Below, piece by piece: positions 211 through 20,424 of a stretch of 20,424 nt of DNA. Numbering within the stretch: position 1 is the first letter of the stretch; each line of letters opens with the position of its first letter. Source of the DNA: a virus; the IMG/VR virus record IMGVR_UViG_3300040811_000332, positions 1 to 20,424 of that record. The stretch is one strand, 5' to 3'. Position numbers and translations under genes: made by a program. The notes under the pieces were generated by a model. That model saw only the letters and a program-made list of their open reading frames with translations, ran no database searches and had not been told where the DNA came from.

Positions 211-2730
211 TTAAAATCCAAAAAACTTTGATGCTGCTGCCATATTAGGATTTGGCTTCTCCCAAACCATTGCTTTGTAGAAATCATCTAACTTATTTTC
301 TAACTCTTTTTTCCAAATCAAATCATAATCGATGTGTTGTTCTACCAAATCTAATATTTCTTTTGGGTCATTATACCCAGTCAATCCAACTGAATCTAAC
401 CCTAATGGATTTCTCTTTAAATACACCCACTTAATCTTATCACCATCTTTCATTGGTTCATATTTGTAAGGTGCATTATAATACTTTAGTAATTGGTTAT
501 ATGTAAGTGCTGCCTTAACGTGAGCGGGTGTTCCCTTCATAAACTCACCAATCGCCTGATTCTTAAACTGATACTTACTCATATCCTTAACTGCTGAGTT
601 CTTAGCGATATCAATGAAGTTTGTTGTTTTCATCTCATCCTTCTTTCTAAGAATGTAATCATCAATCTTACCCTTATCCTCATCTTTAAGAATATCCATC
701 AATACAGTTTCCATCACTTCTTTGAAATAAGTTGGGAATGAACTTCGTTTTACATCTAATCCTTTAACATCTAACTTATCACAATTTACAGTATTATCAT
801 TGATAATCCATTGAGCGTATCTCTTCTTTGATACCCAAAACCCACCTTTAGCGATAGTTTCCTGCTTAATATCAAATCGGTGGTTATCCACATTAAACAT
901 CTTTTTTGACATTGTATCATACACTTTGTTGATGTGTTGTTCAACTTCTTGTGCTACTGATAGAATCGCTGGAATCATTTCTTCATCCGAATCCATATTG
1001 ATGTTTGGGTTTCTGGCCTTAACCAATGGGCCTGCTTGATAGAATACTGAATCAGTATCGGTGTACACATTATAATCTGCTTCTTTACCAATGTTCTTTA
1101 TGTAATATTGGTTAGCAATCATCTCAGTAGTTTTAATTACTGTCTGACCTGTAAGAGTAACTGCTTCTGCGTTATCAACATCATAGAATCGGAATGCTGG
1201 TAATCCTAATACACCATATAGTGAGTTCAACATAATCTTTTGAACTAATTGGCGTTGAGAGTAGAACTTATAGAGTTCATCATTACCTTCCTTACCAAAT
1301 TTCTTCATAAGGTCTTTGTACTCTACCCTCTTATCGAACCATACATTCAGAATCTCAGGTATTACACCCACCTTTTCTTGCGTATAAATTACACCATTTG
1401 ATGCTACTGAGAAATTCATCTTTGTAATGAAATCCATAAACTTCTCTTTATCCATTGGTGGATATTGTTTACCATTTGTATCAGTAATTAGATATTCAGA
1501 TAACGTACCCTTCATATGAGCTTCTGCTGAGTATCCTTCAATCTTACCCAACTTAGTTTCGGGTGAGATATTGATAGTCATAATGATGGATGGATATAGT
1601 GATGTTAAATCTAAATCGTATACCCATTTATAAAGACCAGGTTTTGGTTCTTTCACATAAGCACCAGTAAACTTCTCTTCACCATCAGAACCATCTTCTT
1701 TACGATTCCTTCTCAAAGGTCTATCAGGTGCAACCCTTCCACTTCTTCGCAGGAATGTTAGAATCGCACCTTCTAACCACTTTGATGAGAATAAGAAATC
1801 TTCATAGAAAACGTGTCCAGCATGACATATTGCTCGTGCCAAATCAATAAACTGAAGTTTCTTATCCATATCAACAACCAACTCCACATCCACTAAGTTA
1901 TACTCAATGAACTTCTCAATATCATCTCTGAATAATTGGTCTAGGTTACCTTCGTACTCAACCTTACCTCTACCCAATTCCAACTGAGCGATTGTATCCA
2001 ATCGATAGTTTGGTTGTTGAGTATATGTAAAATTCTTATAAAGTGCAATATAATCTAAAGCAGATACACCAGCAATGATATACCTACTACGATATTGATT
2101 CCAAGTAACTTTTTTGATTGGTGATAATCGATTTGCAGTTGATGTACCAAAAACTCTTTTTAATCTATTGTATAGATAAGTAACATCAAAGAAATCAATA
2201 TTCCAACCAGTTACAATTGTAGGAGAAATCTCTTCCCAACTTGTTAAGAATGCCATCAACATATCTTCTTCAGTTCTGAATGAACGAACCTTAGCCCCTT
2301 TGATGGTTTTATTTATTTCTTCACCCTCATTTACAACATACACATAGTAATCGTTTGTAACTGAATCGTGAAATGCTACTGAAGTCATTGCGTTATTAGC
2401 CTCAGTTGTATCAGGCAGACCTGAATTCATTTCTACCTCAATATCGAATGTTAGAATAACGTGTCCATTTGATACCTCATCTGAATCACCATATTCATCA
2501 ATTAGAAAACGAGTTACCTCATTTACATCAGATTCATATAGTTTTAGATTATCTTCTTTTTTCCAAAAGTTGATTTTCTTTAACCTCTCACCATAGATTG
2601 ATTCATAAGAACCATTACCATCTCTAACATAAGCATAGTTTCTATACTTCTTTGTAAAGTAACCTTTCTTATCATCCCAACAATGAACGATTCCACCTTC
2701 TTTTTCCCAATATACATTTTGATATGCCAT
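211..2730 (-). CDS. 43: Family-B replicative DNA polymerase (T4 gp43-like)
   Basis: This is the replicative DNA polymerase with a 3'-5' proofreading exonuclease, 839 aa, close to the usual gp43 length (about 900). Exonuclease motifs: Exo I has D96-I-E98, Exo II is GWNIDFFD (175-182) and Exo III is Y277-xxx-D281. Polymerase motifs: motif A is DLDLTSLYPSI (372-382) with catalytic D374, motif B is K498-xxx-NSLYG (to 506), and motif C is YTDTDS (556-561) with D558 and D560. All catalytic acids are present. The last residues, SKFFGF, look like a C-terminal clamp-binding peptide, as in T4/RB69 gp43. The gene is second in an operon behind the glycosyltransferase, 15 nt after its stop codon, and no clear Shine-Dalgarno sequence is visible. 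Only the symbol is borrowed from T4. Confidence 0.96.
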   Translation of the reverse strand: MAYQNVYWEKEGGIVHCWDDKKGYFTKKYRNYAYVRDGNGSYESIYGERLKKINFWKKEDNLKLYESDVNEVTRFLIDEYGDSDEVSNGHVILTFDIEVEMNSGLPDTTEANNAMTSVAFHDSVTNDYYVYVVNEGEEINKTIKGAKVRSFRTEEDMLMAFLTSWEEISPTIVTGWNIDFFDVTYLYNRLKRVFGTSTANRLSPIKKVTWNQYRSRYIIAGVSALDYIALYKNFTYTQQPNYRLDTIAQLELGRGKVEYEGNLDQLFRDDIEKFIEYNLVDVELVVDMDKKLQFIDLARAICHAGHVFYEDFLFSSKWLEGAILTFLRRSGRVAPDRPLRRNRKEDGSDGEEKFTGAYVKEPKPGLYKWVYDLDLTSLYPSIIMTINISPETKLGKIEGYSAEAHMKGTLSEYLITDTNGKQYPPMDKEKFMDFITKMNFSVASNGVIYTQEKVGVIPEILNVWFDKRVEYKDLMKKFGKEGNDELYKFYSQRQLVQKIMLNSLYGVLGLPAFRFYDVDNAEAVTLTGQTVIKTTEMIANQYYIKNIGKEADYNVYTDTDSVFYQAGPLVKARNPNINMDSDEEMIPAILSVAQEVEQHINKVYDTMSKKMFNVDNHRFDIKQETIAKGGFWVSKKRYAQWIINDNTVNCDKLDVKGLDVKRSSFPTYFKEVMETVLMDILKDEDKGKIDDYILRKKDEMKTTNFIDIAKNSAVKDMSKYQFKNQAIGEFMKGTPAHVKAALTYNQLLKYYNAPYKYEPMKDGDKIKWVYLKRNPLGLDSVGLTGYNDPKEILDLVEQHIDYDLIWKKELENKLDDFYKAMVWEKPNPNMAAASKFFGF

Positions 2731-4112: not shown

Positions 4113-4144
4113 CAAATATACAAAATATTTTTGAAACTACCAAA
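4113..4144 (-). promoter_or_regulatory. Bacteroidota-type promoter for the glycosyltransferase-gp43 operon
   Basis: On the minus strand TTTG (4141-4144) lies 20 nt ahead of TATATTTG (4113-4120), a perfect match to the -33/-7 pattern. The -33 box falls inside the last codons of the upstream Mom-like gene. The predicted leader is about 20 nt. The spacer pairs poorly here, so this copy does not form the stem-loop seen elsewhere. Confidence 0.82.
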
Positions 4145-4940
4145 AGTTTATTTCATTACTTTCTTCTGGTGGATATGTATCGTGTCTGATAACATCCGTA
4201 TTGTAATCTCTTGTTGATTTGGGATATGATTGAATCTCATGCTTCAACCTTTTCATCAAATCTTTTTTCTCTTTTTTGTTTTGTGGTAATAATTGAATAT
4301 ATCTATGCTTTGGTGGTTCTTCTCTTCTCCAAAACTCTTTGTACCCATCCTTACCGATTTCTCTTTTTAAGTGTTCTAAGTTACCACTACCCCAATTGTT
4401 AAATACAGTTCTACTATGTATCCAATTATGTGGGTCTTTTGTTAGTGAGATACCCCAGTTTGGCATCAATGCGATATCAGTATTCAACCCTTGATATATC
4501 CAGTTGGTTGCCTGATAGATACCACCTAAATGTTCTTGCCCATTATCAGCATATGAAAGTAGAACTTTGATGTTCTTATCATTTTCTTTAATCCACTTAA
4601 ATGTTTTAGATAATGCGTTTGATTCGATATTAGAACCATACCCATCATCAACATACAATCTAGTCAACTCTAAGATATTATCTTTGGTTAATCCTTCACA
4701 TACTGAAGTAGGTGCTTTTGCTCCGACTGGGAATCCGTAGATAGCACATCCAATAAGTTGTTGTTGATTACCGAATACATCTTTTTCATCATTACGATAA
4801 TAGATACCCAATGCGTATCTACAAGATGTCCATGCGTGAGTATAGTGTTTCTTTACGATAATATCCTTAGCAATAGATTTTGCTATGGGAGCAACACTAA
4901 CTCTACTTACATCACAATATTCTTTACCTTCTACTTTCAA
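4137..4940 (-). CDS. Mom-like DNA modification protein, copy A (GNAT-type)
   Basis: This 267-aa protein resembles the Mom family, of which the phage Mu member converts adenine in DNA to N6-carbamoylmethyladenine. Supporting signals are the early KKHYTHAW block (about 30-37), LIGCAIYGFPVG, the ELTRLYVDDGYGSNIES core, LLSYADNGQEHLGGIYQATNWIYQG (read in two parts), and a shared C-terminal KHRY segment. The start is TTG at 4940. It aligns exactly with the ATG of the neighbouring paralog (KVEGKEYCD against KEVGKNYCD), which supports this rare start. The frame overlaps the end of copy B by 17 nt, so the two are probably translationally coupled. No Com-like activator is visible. Membership in the Mom-like group is a motif judgement; the exact base modification is unknown. 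Confidence 0.78.
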   Translation of the reverse strand: MKVEGKEYCDVSRVSVAPIAKSIAKDIIVKKHYTHAWTSCRYALGIYYRNDEKDVFGNQQQLIGCAIYGFPVGAKAPTSVCEGLTKDNILELTRLYVDDGYGSNIESNALSKTFKWIKENDKNIKVLLSYADNGQEHLGGIYQATNWIYQGLNTDIALMPNWGISLTKDPHNWIHSRTVFNNWGSGNLEHLKREIGKDGYKEFWRREEPPKHRYIQLLPQNKKEKKDLMKRLKHEIQSYPKSTRDYNTDVIRHDTYPPEESNEINFW

Positions 4941-5682
4941 TTGGTTCTAATTTTCTAATTTCTAATTCTACTTCGTTTTCTGATTTTGGGTATGGTAAGA
5001 TGGGGTGTTTCAAAGTTTTAAGTAACTTCCTTCTCTCACCACCTTTAGAAAGAATGTAAACATATCGGTGTTTACGTGGTTCTTTACGAATCCAAAATGG
5101 TTTATCAATTTGTTCTTGGATTTTCTTTGGGTCGTTTGTTCCATAATATGGAAATATTGTTCTCCCATGTTGCCACTCACCATCTTCACTAAACTTAAAA
5201 CTCCAACTATCATTATATCGTAATGAATCACCTTGATACAGCCAATTTGTTGCTTGGTAAATAGTTCCGTTGTGTCCCTCTTTAGGGTCTGAGTATGATA
5301 TCAGTGCTTTGATATGTGGAGCGTTCTCCCTTAACCATTCAAAAGTCTTACCTAAGAACCAACTCTCTATGTTTGAACCATACCCATCAAATACAAATAC
5401 TCTAACTAATTCTAAAACTTCCGTTCTATCTAACATATCAGTTATGGATTGTCCACTCAATCTTCCGATTGGGTCTCCATAACACGCAACACCAATAAGC
5501 TTTTCTGAAGTATTAAAGAATTGATGTGAATCATCTTCAACATATAAACCAATAGCGTAAGATACCTTAGTCCATAAATGAGAATAATGATTCTTTATCA
5601 CTATATCTTTTGCTACGGATTTAGAAATCTTTCTTATTGATATTTTTGATGTATCACAATAATTCTTTCCTACTTCCTTCAT
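4924..5682 (-). CDS. Mom-like DNA modification protein, copy B (GNAT-type)
   Basis: This 252-aa protein is a clear paralog of the next gene downstream. Shared blocks in the same order include YCD near the N-terminus, IKNHYSHLW, LIGVACYGDPIG, LELVRVFVFDGYGSNIES, LISYSDPKEGHNGTIYQATNW, and KHRYVYIL followed by LKTLKHPI. Where copy A has SYAD, this one has SYSD, and the segment between about 145 and 190 is strongly diverged, so the substrates may differ. The start ATG overlaps the stop of the upstream HTH gene as TAATG, which suggests coupled translation. The expected role is transfer of a small acyl-derived group to a DNA base, by analogy with phage Mu Mom. This is inferred from motifs and not demonstrated. 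Confidence 0.78.
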   Translation of the reverse strand: MKEVGKNYCDTSKISIRKISKSVAKDIVIKNHYSHLWTKVSYAIGLYVEDDSHQFFNTSEKLIGVACYGDPIGRLSGQSITDMLDRTEVLELVRVFVFDGYGSNIESWFLGKTFEWLRENAPHIKALISYSDPKEGHNGTIYQATNWLYQGDSLRYNDSWSFKFSEDGEWQHGRTIFPYYGTNDPKKIQEQIDKPFWIRKEPRKHRYVYILSKGGERRKLLKTLKHPILPYPKSENEVELEIRKLEPIESRR

Positions 5683-5900
5683 TACTGATATTTATCGAAA
5701 TCACCTATTAACAAATGTGTCCAAGTTTCATTCCTAACAATTCTACGAATATTAGCAGGAGAAACACCATTGTTCCTAGCCAACACTCTTATATTTCTAT
5801 GGCCTACTTTCCATAGTTTTCTTATGGCGTTCACCTGCTCTTCAGTCAGTTTATGTGCTGGATGTGATTCCCCTCTTAATGCCATCCTATATCTCTTCAT
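5682..5900 (-). CDS. Small HTH protein related to the C-terminal module of HNH homing endonucleases
   Basis: This 72-aa protein has the pattern RGESHPAHKLTEEQVNAI, then a helix-turn-helix around LARNNGVSPANIRRIVRN and a final ETWTHL. This is the arrangement typical of the DNA-binding tail of phage HNH/NUMOD homing endonucleases. No nuclease domain is present, so it is either a standalone DNA-binding protein or a relic of an endonuclease. ATG 5900 overlaps the upstream MazG-like gene by 14 nt. An internal ATG at 5885 (MALRGE...) sits one base past that gene's stop codon and could be the real start, giving 67 aa. Its place ahead of two Mom-like genes would suit a local regulator, but nothing in the sequence proves this. 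Confidence 0.65.
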   Translation of the reverse strand: MKRYRMALRGESHPAHKLTEEQVNAIRKLWKVGHRNIRVLARNNGVSPANIRRIVRNETWTHLLIGDFDKYQ

Positions 5901-13920: not shown

Positions 13921-13952
13921 CAAATATACGAATAATTTTTCAATTATCCAAA
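13921..13952 (-). promoter_or_regulatory. Proximal gp32 promoter with stem-loop spacer
   Basis: On the minus strand TTTG (13949-13952), a 20-nt spacer and TATATTTG (13921-13928) match the consensus fully. The spacer holds GGATAATT, GAAA and AATTATTC, an uninterrupted 8-bp stem (one G-U) with a GNRA-type loop. The leader from here is about 33 nt. Confidence 0.85.
13930..13949 (-). terminator. Hairpin inside the proximal gp32 promoter
   Basis: The transcript would fold as GGAUAAUU-GAAA-AAUUAUUC, followed by G and UAUAUUUG. It lies on RNA started at the distal gp32 promoter, so it could attenuate that transcript or act as a DNA-level operator. The structure is seen; the role is inferred. Confidence 0.35.
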
Positions 13953-16578: not shown

Positions 16579-17838
16579 TTATTCCTGTATGTTTTCTATA
16601 TTTACCGATTTCATTTCTGAATATCTATCACCAATTTCTATCTTAGTAGGGAATCCATTCCCATCTATAAGTATCTTTAAATCATTTAATACACTAAGTT
16701 CATCAGGATGTATATCTAATAAATATGAATCGTAAGTATATAACACCATTTTAGATTGTTTATCTTCCAAAAAATCCACCACTTTTGAAAGTATCATCAT
16801 ATTCAACTCAGTTTCCGTTGCTTGTAGAAGATAATTGAATAGTTTGTTAGCATTCATATCCCTTAGATTAGATTTAGATAACTTTCTACCCATTGGAGTT
16901 TGAATGTATCCATTACGATTAAACTCCATCCACAACTTATCAATTTTGTGTGATACCTTTTTGAAAAGTGGTATGTGTAAGTACTCCGATTGAACTCCAC
17001 CATATAATTGACGGAATGTGATTCCTTTTGATTCTTCATATGATACCCCATACATATCGGCTAAGGCTTGGTGAGCGGATACATCCATTGGTATAGGTTC
17101 TCCTACCATTCTACTAATGATACGTGGATGATATCCATCATAATCAAATTGAACTAACTTACCCCCATCGAACCTACTAATAAATCTATCTCTACTACCA
17201 TCATCTTTATTAAGTGCGGCATAGTTCACTCCCCCAAATCTATTTGAAGGACGTGATGTTAATGTATATGGGTAATACTCACTCCACTCCATTCCACTCT
17301 CTGTCCAAAGTCCACTCTTTTCTACTTTGTGTAACGGCTTTATATAGAAATTTTCAAATTTCTTCACACCTTCGGTGATTCCCCCACCCAAATCGTAATA
17401 CTGAAGGAATTCATCTCTTATATCTCTGATAGATTCAATATGTTTAGATATAGGTATGAGATTGTTTACCCACTTTAGATTGTGGAACTTTCTATGAAAA
17501 TGATGATGGGTCGGAGTCTGGTCTCGTTTTAATATATCGTTCACTTGTAGGTATTTTACCACATCAGCATCGTATGTGTTTGGAAGGTCGACCAGATTTA
17601 AGAACGATTTTTTACCCAATATATACCCTTCCTTAAAATTAAGAGAAATACTTTCCAATGATGAACTATGGAAATCGAAATTACCGATGTTTACTACAAG
17701 CTCCGTACCCTCATCAATATCATAGATATATAGTAATGATAATTTGTTCTGAGATGCATGTAAGTGTATATCCGCCCATATTGGGTGGATATACATCTTC
17801 TCCATACTGATATTTCCCTCAGTTACAAAATTAATCAT
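16579..17838 (-). CDS. Short divergent family-A DNA polymerase (Pol I-type polymerase domain)
   Basis: This 419-aa protein shows the Pol I polymerase core in order. TSRPSNRFGGVNY (195-207) corresponds to TGRLSS..PNLQNIP with R196. Motif A is LVQFDYDGYHPRI (228-240) with catalytic D232. HQALADMYGV matches the IHTATAAEVFGV region. The O-helix is SKGITFRQLYGG with K271, F275, Y279 and G280. Motif C is LYTYDSYLLDI with D370. The end PTKIEIGDRYSEM matches the Pol I C-terminal strand. Departures from E. coli Pol I: the steric-gate Glu710 position is His, R754 is Tyr, and HDE of motif C is YDS. Residues 20-105 may be a degenerate exonuclease domain without its acids. No 5' nuclease is fused. The -7 box ends 4 nt before the ATG, suggesting a leaderless message. 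Confidence 0.82.
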   Translation of the reverse strand: MINFVTEGNISMEKMYIHPIWADIHLHASQNKLSLLYIYDIDEGTELVVNIGNFDFHSSSLESISLNFKEGYILGKKSFLNLVDLPNTYDADVVKYLQVNDILKRDQTPTHHHFHRKFHNLKWVNNLIPISKHIESIRDIRDEFLQYYDLGGGITEGVKKFENFYIKPLHKVEKSGLWTESGMEWSEYYPYTLTSRPSNRFGGVNYAALNKDDGSRDRFISRFDGGKLVQFDYDGYHPRIISRMVGEPIPMDVSAHQALADMYGVSYEESKGITFRQLYGGVQSEYLHIPLFKKVSHKIDKLWMEFNRNGYIQTPMGRKLSKSNLRDMNANKLFNYLLQATETELNMMILSKVVDFLEDKQSKMVLYTYDSYLLDIHPDELSVLNDLKILIDGNGFPTKIEIGDRYSEMKSVNIENIQE

Positions 17839-17855: not shown

Positions 17856-19910
17856 TTATTTTTTGTTTTTACGTTTATTTTCAAAGTATTCAATAATATC
17901 TTGCAATTTAAACTCAATCTGCAATCGTTCTCTTTCGGATTTATACTTTTTAATAACCTTTGGGGATGATTGTTGCTTCAATATGTATTCATAATACCCA
18001 ACTTCCGTATCAAATACTTTAGTTTTAGCACCATCTGCTGAGTTTGTTTCGTTTGCTCTGATAGCACCATATGTTTGAATTGGATTTTGAATGTGTTCCC
18101 AAGAAACATTTTCCTTTTTATTACCATCATATCCACAATAAACAGTTTTCCCACTCTCAGTATCTTCCCACCAACCAAATTTAGTAAGATTAGTAATTCT
18201 TTTTAGTTCTTCAATATGTTTATCAACTCTCTCTTCATTTGTTCCTTGATAATCTTCGTAGTTCTGATATGACTTTTTGTAATCATCTAATTTTGAGCTA
18301 GTGAAATATTTACCTCTACCTTTATGTGTCGCAGAATATCCATCTGAATCGGTATCTGTTAGTAATTTTAGGAACTCGGAATCTTTAATAGTATATGTAC
18401 TATTCAACTCATCAACAACAAATACATTATCACCAAAGAATGTTTCTAAAAATAGGCTAATAGCTTTTTCAACATTATCATCTGAGTTTTTAATAGTTTT
18501 TCCATCTCCCGCAAATAATAAAGTTAATATAACATATGAATTATAACTAAACGCAGGATTGACTAATCTATCTATCTTTGATGGAGAAAGTGTTTTCAAT
18601 TCATCACTTTGATTTTTAATATTCCTACCTTTTAATTTCTTTAAAACGTTTCTAAGTCCTTTTAGTTTTTTCTTATATTCCTCCCATATTTCCAATGATG
18701 ACTCGGTAAAACATGGGTTAATTAAATCATACTTAAATTGAGGTAACTCTTTTAATTTAGCATTACCTTTTTCATCAACCATAGTATAATTGGAAAGTGC
18801 TTCAAGAGTTTTACCTTCCATCAAATCAGCAAGATTTTTGAAATTCTCTAACCTCTCATCATTTGATTCTTTAAAATCACTCTTTGAAAAACTATCTAAC
18901 GCCATCACTGGCACTAATGAGTATTCAGGTGCTGTATCAATTAAGTATTTGAAGTACTTTCTGGTTTCGGTATAGTCATCATTTACTAACGATAATTTAG
19001 CTTCATTTGTAAATGCTATCTCAGTTTTGTATAATATTTCCTGAAATAAATAGTTAATGTTAACCCAGCTATTATTTTTATTATTTATACTTTCTAATTC
19101 TCCAGAAATGATTTCATGAGGTCCAATTAGAATGTGAACCGATTCCCACTTATTAATGATATTATCCACACCATCTTTACCAATACAATCAATAATATTG
19201 TAAGTAGTAGATGCCGCATCATCTTTAATCTCTTCTAGCAATTCATCTATTCTTACTGGATAGTGTTTAGGGTATTTTTCTTTAATCTGATTACATACTA
19301 TCGATAAATCTTTCTTACTTAATTTATCATAACCAATATGCGTTAATTCAGAAATATTAGAATAATTTTTATTAAAGTGTGTATGTAAGTTTATAGTACA
19401 AAACTCCATTAGATTACTTCTATCATAAGCTTCAATTTTATTGGATATTGTATCCGATTTTACACCAAATGGGAAGAAGTTTGCACTAGCACAATTGAAA
19501 GCTCGAAGTAAAGAATATCTAAAGTTATCCATTATCTTGGCTAAGCCAGCGTTTCTGATTCGTTGTTCGTTATATTTAGAAAAATATGTTTTTGAGTTGG
19601 TGTAAATCACACCGGCTTCAAGTAATGTATCAGATTCATAATGATTCAAAATAGTTTCAAACTTAATGTGAGTTTTTATATTAACAGGTATTTGAACGTC
19701 ATTTCTCAAACAAAACTCTTTAATTAGAAGTACATCTTTATGTAGTTTCTTCATATCGGATTCATAAACTTTCCCTACGATGAAATCACTCTTATTGAGG
19801 TGTTCAACTAAACTTAGTTTTTCTTTTAACTTGTCAAATCCATCTTTTTTACTAAGATGAACCCATGGTTGTCTTTTAGGTTTACTTTTTGGTGTGTTTG
19901 GATTTATCAT
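17856..19910 (-). CDS. Large orphan phage protein (684 aa), weak HNH-like C-terminal motif
   Basis: I do not recognise a family. The protein is lysine-rich and mostly helical, with no signal peptide or membrane segment. Features worth noting are a basic N-terminus (NTPKSKPKRQPW), LRAFNCASANFFPFG (135-149), a charged helical segment at 405-430, a hydrophobic SYVILTLLFAGDGK (458-471) and TDTDSDGYSATHKGRGKYF (518-536). Near the C-terminus TVYCGYDGNKKENVSWEHIQNP (589-610, read in two parts) resembles the C..G....(D/E)HIxP core of HNH nucleases, but the second Cys and the final His are missing, so the match is weak. It ends in a lysine-rich helix. The gene is transcribed alone from its own promoter, ahead of the family-A polymerase. 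The long single frame supports that it is real. Confidence 0.75.
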   Translation of the reverse strand: MINPNTPKSKPKRQPWVHLSKKDGFDKLKEKLSLVEHLNKSDFIVGKVYESDMKKLHKDVLLIKEFCLRNDVQIPVNIKTHIKFETILNHYESDTLLEAGVIYTNSKTYFSKYNEQRIRNAGLAKIMDNFRYSLLRAFNCASANFFPFGVKSDTISNKIEAYDRSNLMEFCTINLHTHFNKNYSNISELTHIGYDKLSKKDLSIVCNQIKEKYPKHYPVRIDELLEEIKDDAASTTYNIIDCIGKDGVDNIINKWESVHILIGPHEIISGELESINNKNNSWVNINYLFQEILYKTEIAFTNEAKLSLVNDDYTETRKYFKYLIDTAPEYSLVPVMALDSFSKSDFKESNDERLENFKNLADLMEGKTLEALSNYTMVDEKGNAKLKELPQFKYDLINPCFTESSLEIWEEYKKKLKGLRNVLKKLKGRNIKNQSDELKTLSPSKIDRLVNPAFSYNSYVILTLLFAGDGKTIKNSDDNVEKAISLFLETFFGDNVFVVDELNSTYTIKDSEFLKLLTDTDSDGYSATHKGRGKYFTSSKLDDYKKSYQNYEDYQGTNEERVDKHIEELKRITNLTKFGWWEDTESGKTVYCGYDGNKKENVSWEHIQNPIQTYGAIRANETNSADGAKTKVFDTEVGYYEYILKQQSSPKVIKKYKSERERLQIEFKLQDIIEYFENKRKNKK

Positions 19911-19931: not shown

Positions 19932-19963
19932 GAAATATACGAAATTATTCTGATAATTCCAAA
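19932..19963 (-). promoter_or_regulatory. Promoter for the 684-aa gene with stem-loop spacer
   Basis: On the minus strand TTTG (19960-19963), 20-nt spacer and TATATTTC (19932-19939; last base differs from the consensus G). The spacer is GGAATTAT, CAGA and ATAATTTC, a full 8-bp stem with one G-U. The leader is about 17 nt. Confidence 0.62.
19941..19960 (-). terminator. Hairpin inside the 684-aa gene promoter
   Basis: GGAAUUAU-CAGA-AUAAUUUC pairs over all 8 positions. The stop codon of the 25-aa ORF lies inside the stem, so a ribosome finishing that ORF would open it. UAUAUUUC follows. Terminator or operator roles are both possible. Confidence 0.33.
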
Positions 19964-20022
19964 AGTAATTCCTGTAATTCTTCGTACTTATCTGCTTCTA
20001 CTTCTAATTGATACCAACTCAT
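19945..20022 (-). CDS. 25-aa acidic small ORF coupled to the SWIM gene
   Basis: This short frame encodes MSWYQLEVEADKYEELQELL and LELSE, a Glu/Leu-rich sequence likely to form one amphipathic helix. Its ATG overlaps the SWIM gene's TGA as ATGA, the same coupling seen elsewhere in this window. That overlap is the main reason to regard it as translated. Its stop codon falls in the promoter stem-loop of the next gene. The function is unknown; it might pair with the SWIM protein. Confidence 0.5.
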   Translation of the reverse strand: MSWYQLEVEADKYEELQELLLELSE

Positions 20023-20204
20023 ATGGATAAATGTGATAATTTTTGATGTAATCGTTTCATATGTTTACATGGAGTGTATCTACGAAACTCTCTTGCAGGA
20101 CACTCACAATCGGTAATCTTATAATCAGTTACAGTTACGTTATAGTAGGATAACTTTCCAGTCTTTTTATTCCTACTACCCATTTCTCTATACTGCCACT
20201 TCAT
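20019..20204 (-). CDS. SWIM-type zinc-finger miniprotein (61 aa)
   Basis: This 61-aa protein contains the SWIM signature CxCx(n)CxH: C33-E-C35, then 10 residues, then C46-K-H48 (DCECPAREF...TPCKHMKRL). SWIM fingers bind one zinc and are known as DNA- or protein-binding modules, usually inside larger proteins. Here the finger makes up most of the protein, preceded by a basic beta-like stretch (RNKKTGKLSYYNVTVTDYKI). The ATG lies inside the end of the upstream gene, which overlaps it by 17 nt, and the TGA overlaps the next small ORF. Function is not established; a DNA-binding or adaptor role is the natural inference. Confidence 0.78.
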   Translation of the reverse strand: MKWQYREMGSRNKKTGKLSYYNVTVTDYKITDCECPAREFRRYTPCKHMKRLHQKLSHLSI

Positions 20205-20424
20205 CTTCTTTTCGAATTAGTTTGTACAAAGATTCCGTACTCAGAACCGATGGTTCACTCCATTTAAGTTCGTGACTAACATACTCAAACTTCTCAACAA
20301 TAGTTGATTCTGCCTCAACCAACTTTGTTAGATGTTGTTCTAACTTATTAGAATACATCACCACATCCGAATCTACTTTGATTTCGAACTCATGTCCACC
20401 TTTCGGTTTCCAATAGGGAACTTC
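20188..20424 (-). CDS. C-terminal part of an unidentified protein
   Basis: An open frame enters from the right edge and ends at TAG 20188, giving 78 residues (EVPYWKPKGGHEFEIKV... ending RKEDEVAV). The middle is helical and acidic (NKLEQHLTKLVEAESTIVEK). The overlap of 17 nt with the SWIM gene, in the same direction, indicates a shared operon. No family is recognised from this fragment. Confidence 0.6.
   Translation of the reverse strand, partial: EVPYWKPKGGHEFEIKVDSDVVMYSNKLEQHLTKLVEAESTIVEKFEYVSHELKWSEPSVLSTESLYKLIRKEDEVAV

Follow-up and report, generated by a model that had tools for sequence, protein, structure and literature searches.

A stand-alone SWIM-motif protein of uncultured phages that is strongly conserved and mobile in position, and the acidic 25-aa ORF that follows it at some loci

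The SWIM zinc finger (Pfam PF04434), reportedly first described by Makarova and colleagues in 2002, has strands leading into a CxC pair and a helix around a CxH pair. Catalogues already contain small viral SWIM proteins, among them a 55-aa one from an uncultured marine virus (UniProt A0A0F7L8L1). Bacillus phage SP-15 encodes a SWIM protein of 161 aa (SP15_125, UniProt A0A127AWG3) and Listeria phage LIS04 encodes one of 150 aa, annotated as 'SWIM zinc finger domain-containing protein'; in both, the finger lies near the N-terminus and is followed by a C-terminal extension. In gp285 of Bacillus phage G (233 aa) SWIM is confined to the C-terminal part, at residues 195-228 behind a long N-terminal region, where it scores 24 bits, above the Pfam cut-off. 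The Shu2/SWS1 SWIM proteins carry the motif CxC...CxHxxA and act with RAD51 paralogs, according to PMC6316741. Our literature search, which covered mainly openly accessible journals, returned no paper describing a SWIM miniprotein that stands alone in a tailed phage. What makes the family described here interesting is how conserved and mobile it is.

We analysed a stretch of 20,424 nucleotides (IMG/VR virus record IMGVR_UViG_3300040811_000332, positions 1 to 20,424), referred to hereafter as the window. The features that concern us lie towards its end:

16579 to 17838, minus strand: family-A DNA polymerase-like gene, 419 aa (Pfam DNA_pol_A, E 4.6e-5, 23 bits)
17856 to 19910, minus strand: gene for a 684-aa protein with no assigned family, between the mini-ORF and the polA-like gene
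19933 to 19963, minus strand: predicted Bacteroidota-like promoter, TTTG-N20-TATATTT, resembling TTTG-N20-TATATTTG
19945 to 20022, minus strand: acidic mini-ORF of 25 aa (MSWYQLEVEADKYEELQELLLELSE), ATG start, read from 20022 to 19945
20019 to 20022, minus strand: ATGA stop/start overlap of the SWIM ORF and the 25-aa ORF, seen in the sequence
20019 to 20204, minus strand: SWIM ORF, a stand-alone zinc-finger protein of 61 aa, ATG start, read from 20204 to 20019
20188 to 20424, minus strand: upstream ORF, incomplete at the window end (78 codons), sharing 17 nt with the start of the SWIM ORF

The initial annotation had described a stand-alone SWIM miniprotein joined by ATGA to an acidic partner. 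Both ORFs were found where it had placed them, on the minus strand, with ATG starts and the shared ATGA. In the 61-aa protein the motif reads C33-x-C35-x10-C46-x-H48. IMG/VR encodes 94 relatives; each of the best 80 of these 94, which were kept (identity 71-100%), has CxC...CxH in a short frame of its own (63-124 codons from stop to stop). The claim of a stand-alone, basic miniprotein was upheld, and the protein proved strongly conserved. The opposition of charge was real as well, the computed values at pH 7 being +8.7 for the SWIM protein (pI 9.8) and -7.5 for the 25-aa ORF (pI 4.1).

An alignment of the window protein with 59 distinct relatives (60 sequences) had a mean column identity of 83%. 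The putative zinc ligands C33, C35, C46 and H48 did not vary; E7, G9, S10, R11, K13, K14, Y21 and K47 were likewise invariant, and R51 was present in at least 90% of the alignment. The relatives were picked by similarity to SWIM, which inflates this conservation and misses diverged or fused forms. Pooled over 61 distinct DNA sequences, pS was 0.71 and pN 0.135 (pN/pS 0.19), so that synonymous change is close to saturated, whereas the protein has been held. Judged from these sequences, the SWIM ORF is a genuine, short and strongly constrained gene. Some of the proteins (L030, L035 and L044) have an N-terminal extension that begins MSWY, as the mini-ORF does, which is probably a coincidence.

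By its motif the 61-aa protein belongs to SWIM; by profile, from a single sequence, it is so assigned only weakly, and it is the conservation that lifts the call above chance. Pfam SWIM matched the window protein at E 0.22 and 11.6 bits, short of the 19.6-bit cut-off, and gave E ≤ 1 for 12 of 31 aligned members (best E 0.012). The SP-15 and LIS04 proteins, which are ranked or named as SWIM, likewise fall under this cut-off. The AlphaFold2 model built from the 60 sequences has strands at residues 2-11, 18-26 and 29-33 and helices at 37-40 and 47-55; mean pLDDT was 83.1 for the best of five models and 70-77 for the other four, and an earlier model from 31 sequences had reached 71. Searched against BFVD, the model matched, in order, the SP-15 SWIM protein, an unnamed 70-aa protein, phage G gp285 and the 55-aa marine-virus SWIM protein, all of them weakly (E 0.04-0.19, every value at least 0.039); with the first AlphaFold2 model SP-15, gp285 and the 55-aa protein took ranks 1-3. 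No fold match to the SWIM model at E ≤ 0.001 was found in BFVD or the PDB. The PDB fold search stayed at noise level (best Z 3.0), which is not to be taken as a sign of a new fold. Gamma-crystallin, the sole PDB sequence-profile match (E 0.23 or worse), was taken as chance. In PHROGs the SWIM protein matched only at E 0.068 and 0.21 and the mini-ORF had no match; NCBIfam and PADLOC returned nothing for the SWIM protein, and a plasmid search with it gave only two Haloarcula matches (E 0.2-0.7).

Set against PF04434, the window protein shares the CxC-x10-CxH spacing, the 'PCKH' sequence and the helix after it. It differs in consisting of almost only the finger, in scoring under the Pfam cut-off and in having an invariant basic stretch, E-x-G-S-R-x-K-K, ahead of the finger. 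The SP-15 protein is the best-ranked fold match (probability 0.99, 39% identity over 49 columns). Its finger and that of the LIS04 protein lie near the N-terminus as in the window protein, which, unlike them, has no C-terminal extension; by tblastn the link to the window protein reached only E 0.9. The marine-virus protein has the same size as the window protein, with 22% identity and a weak fold match (E 0.19), and was compared by that match alone. Gp285, with its long N-terminal region, is unlike the window protein. Com of phage Mu, the translational activator of mom, is a four-cysteine zinc ribbon; the window protein does not fit this type, having three cysteines (C33, C35 and C46).

The genes around SWIM change from locus to locus. 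Upstream neighbours belong to 19 families in 86 loci, the two commonest accounting for 27 and 23 loci (the family of the window's own upstream ORF precedes SWIM in 23 of the 86), and downstream neighbours belong to 20 families in the 81 loci that have a gene there. No shared function was seen among the immediate neighbours, and the gene is found amid series of small genes that belong to no known family. In each of 26 larger contigs SWIM matched once. The SWIM gene is thus single-copy in each contig tested, mobile in position and found beside many different genes. Its carriers are judged to be large, tailed and T4-like, with Bacteroidota as possible hosts. The host assignment is uncertain, for the window's UvsX and polA-like proteins both have their best match in Microcystis phage Mel-JY01, the closest isolate by UvsX (53% identity), and the one genome-contig match of SWIM is in a Methylophilaceae MAG. 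A search of the whole Mel-JY01 genome for SWIM gave no match (best E 0.51).

Some further observations belong to this setting. Two tandem Mom-family genes lie in the window at 4137-5682 on the minus strand (Pfam Mom, E 1e-44 and 2e-45), and a 72-aa ORF with weak helix-turn-helix matches (5682-5900) precedes the first of them, with a shared start/stop. SWIM was considered as a marker of Mom-carrying phages and this was dropped: Mom was found in 9 of the 26 SWIM contigs, which are fragments (two copies in six of the nine), so no tie between the two genes was seen. The sole genome-contig match of SWIM lies in a Methylophilaceae MAG (L106, 4915-5260), where the ORF is inside what by eye appears to be a yqeY-dnaG stretch; its DNA is about 93% identical to phage locus L045 over 199 bp. 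A chimeric assembly or an insertion may explain its position there. In 16 contigs picked because they carry relatives of UvsX or of the polA-like protein, SWIM was found once, in the window-like positive control; the remaining 15 contigs are fragmentary (14-63 kb).

The reading we favour, to which we would give about an even chance of being right, is that SWIM is an exchangeable stand-alone cassette of T4-like phages encoding a putative adaptor, and that the mini-ORF is a separate, promoter-linked element whose coupling to SWIM is incidental. The 61-aa protein would fold around one zinc ion as a beta-sheet with a C-terminal helix. Its invariant basic loop (E7, G9-S10-R11, K13-K14) and the helix may grip an invariant partner during infection, most likely nucleic acid and otherwise a conserved host protein. 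SWIM would then serve as a zinc-stabilised nucleic-acid or protein adaptor. For the 25-aa ORF, we suppose that the promoter of the next gene has its upstream half in the 3' end of this ORF, because of which the mini-ORF would move and be conserved with that promoter, and that its translational coupling to SWIM is incidental.

Promoters of the Bacteroidota type have a TTG element at -33. At the window locus a TTTGG half lies at 19963-19959, inside the mini-ORF, and TTTCGTATATTT follows at 19944-19933, right after the mini-ORF stop codon. The pattern TTTG-N20-TATATTTG fits the Flavobacterium -7 box TAnnTTTG as given in PMC9723704, and we treat it as a predicted promoter; the window copy reads TATATTTC, one base off that box. 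Directly after the mini-ORF stop, TTTCGTATATT is present in nine of nine SWIM-linked variants, and beyond it the sequence diverges with the downstream gene. Among four SWIM-less sequence types inspected, both TTTCGTATATT after the stop and the TTTGG half within the mini-ORF are found in three (L083, L085 and L097), not in L095.

The element recurs well beyond the mini-ORF. Across the 80 loci there are 91 TTTCGTATATT sites on the plus strand and none on the minus strand, and five shuffles gave none. The sites fall in 62 of the 80 SWIM loci and in 67 distinct contexts, 47 of which have a TTTGG-like element 18-19 nt upstream. In 63 of the 67 an ATG lies no more than 49 nt downstream, a test that is weak alone because random positions already give 76%. 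In the window, the coding strand has four copies of CGTATATTT, where 0.08 are expected, and the other strand has none; TTTCGTATATT with TTTGG upstream stands before several genes. Minus-strand sites lie at 19944-19933, 17855-17844 and 14021-14010, and two more, given by the first base of CGTATATT, are at 13930 and 6321. In many relatives a palindrome such as TTTACatagTAAAT comes after the TTTCGTATATT element, and in L005 the TTTGG half is carried by the 3' end of SWIM itself.

Since half of the predicted promoter lies inside the mini-ORF, conservation of the mini-ORF DNA is at least partly promoter conservation. The mini-ORF might then be a mere by-product, with no functional peptide. We consider this unlikely, though with a real chance of being correct. 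The promoter half lies in the 3' third of the ORF in most variants, and synonymous divergence is lower in the mini-ORF than in SWIM of the same phages (pS 0.00 as against 0.32 between L001 and L004). Against this, the peptide sequence WYQ-[LIV]-E-[VI]-EADK-[WY]-EE is held, with synonymous changes, in five contexts that include the promoter-less L095, so promoter overlap cannot account for all of the conservation; this argument from residues is partly circular because the scan pattern itself requires many of them. An unbiased set of nine related variants gave a pN/pS of 0.29.

The genes beyond the mini-ORF vary too. In 12 of 38 polA-like loci with the gene start in view the mini-ORF lies upstream of the polA-like gene, and in six of the 38 it ends 17 nt before it, one of these six (L277) being SWIM-less. 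In the window the 684-aa gene occupies this gap, with a copy of AATAATTTCGTATATTT on either side; this direct repeat, 17 nt long, includes the promoter element. The relative L004 has a single copy of AATAATTTCGTATATTT and lacks the 684-aa gene. The 684-aa protein has no family above threshold in Pfam, PHROGs or PADLOC and only E 0.053 in NCBIfam. The polA-like protein itself stays under the Pfam DNA_pol_A cut-off (23 bits against 34.3) and by eye has YDS, not HDE, in the motif C region. The same phage carries an 839-aa ORF (211-2730, minus strand) that by eye resembles a family-B polymerase.

We return to the SWIM protein, proposed above to be an adaptor, and to how it compares with UvsX, the phage RecA homologue. 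UvsX was found in 15 of the 26 larger SWIM contigs. Identity to the window across these 15 contigs was 78-90% for SWIM and 26-94% for UvsX, and SWIM was the more similar of the two in 12, although its narrow range is partly due to selection by SWIM similarity. The two identities correlate (Spearman 0.56, p 0.03). A sequence that stays nearly constant while UvsX diverges, in a protein that is small, single-copy, mobile and surrounded by small family-less genes, might mark a factor for host takeover or counter-defence whose binding target is a conserved protein of the host. The initial annotation had raised an anti-host role, for which PADLOC gave no match, although PADLOC holds defence and not counter-defence proteins. 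We hold this role to be unlikely, though not remote.

A role as recombination mediator of the phage RecA-like protein, as Shu2/SWS1 has with RAD51 paralogs, is very unlikely in our estimate. In the window about 7 kb separate UvsX from SWIM, which lies in a cluster for replication and nucleotide metabolism, and in PMC6316741 the accessory-factor role belongs to Shu2/SWS1, with which the window protein has SWIM in common. This linkage is not kept, however. The distance ranges from about 4 to about 77 kb, the two genes being some 50 kb apart in each of G005, G009 and G014 and some 77 kb apart in G013, so that where Shu2/SWS1 has a partnership with RAD51 paralogs the window SWIM has no stable linkage to the RecA homologue. 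In G023 UvsX is only 26% identical and SWIM is still 82% identical. Where PMC6316741 gives the motif as CxHxxA, the window protein reads C46-K-H48-M-K-R51.

How often SWIM and the mini-ORF occur together bears on the claim that they form a pair. The mini-ORF follows SWIM in 15 of 80 loci, always by the ATGA overlap, and is missing there in the other 65. By pattern scan the mini-ORF was located in 23 contigs, with SWIM directly upstream in 15 and not in eight; in none of these eight, which are short (10-27 kb), was SWIM found elsewhere. A looser DNA pattern, which diverged copies could escape, was present in two of the 26 larger SWIM contigs and nowhere in the other 24. ATGA coupling proved unspecific as the mark of a pair: an ORF starts in the SWIM stop codon in 31 of 80 loci, 15 times the mini-ORF and 16 times a member of three other families, namely glycosyltransferase-like (5), 115-aa-type (8) and 71-aa (3). 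That the acidic peptide is a modulator bound to the basic SWIM protein, the two resembling a miniature protein-inhibitor pair, is therefore highly improbable despite the opposite charges, the ATGA overlap and the 15 mini-ORF contigs in which SWIM is directly upstream and the overlap is constant, for the co-occurrence of a two-gene protein/modulator system is not what was found (15/80 SWIM loci, 15/23 mini-ORF contigs, 2/26 larger contigs). The idea of a dedicated modulator thus failed in other phages, where the mini-ORF is conserved when present and absent from most SWIM loci; the pair fails on this, and the ORF itself does not. On sequence comparison the 25-aa ORF looks like a separate, genuine micro-ORF that can be swapped and is no dedicated partner of SWIM.

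A bolder version of the favoured reading, which we think quite doubtful, would stress that SWIM is better conserved than the RecA homologue, bounded by promoters and, as a cassette, shuffled among many large phages. SWIM would then be an invariant module for host takeover or for gripping nucleic acid, with a target that is near-universal in its hosts, and the 25-aa ORF would be a promoter cassette that codes for a peptide and moves between genes.

These results show that phages can keep a minimal SWIM finger as a protein in its own right and under strong constraint, which offers a small and tractable test case for the action of a SWIM domain alone. They also illustrate that two proteins may look like a pair, through an ATGA overlap and opposite charge, when comparison of relatives gives the pairing no support. 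In these uncultured phages the predicted promoter that recurs where genes meet may serve as a marker of the host and may also be where cassettes are exchanged.
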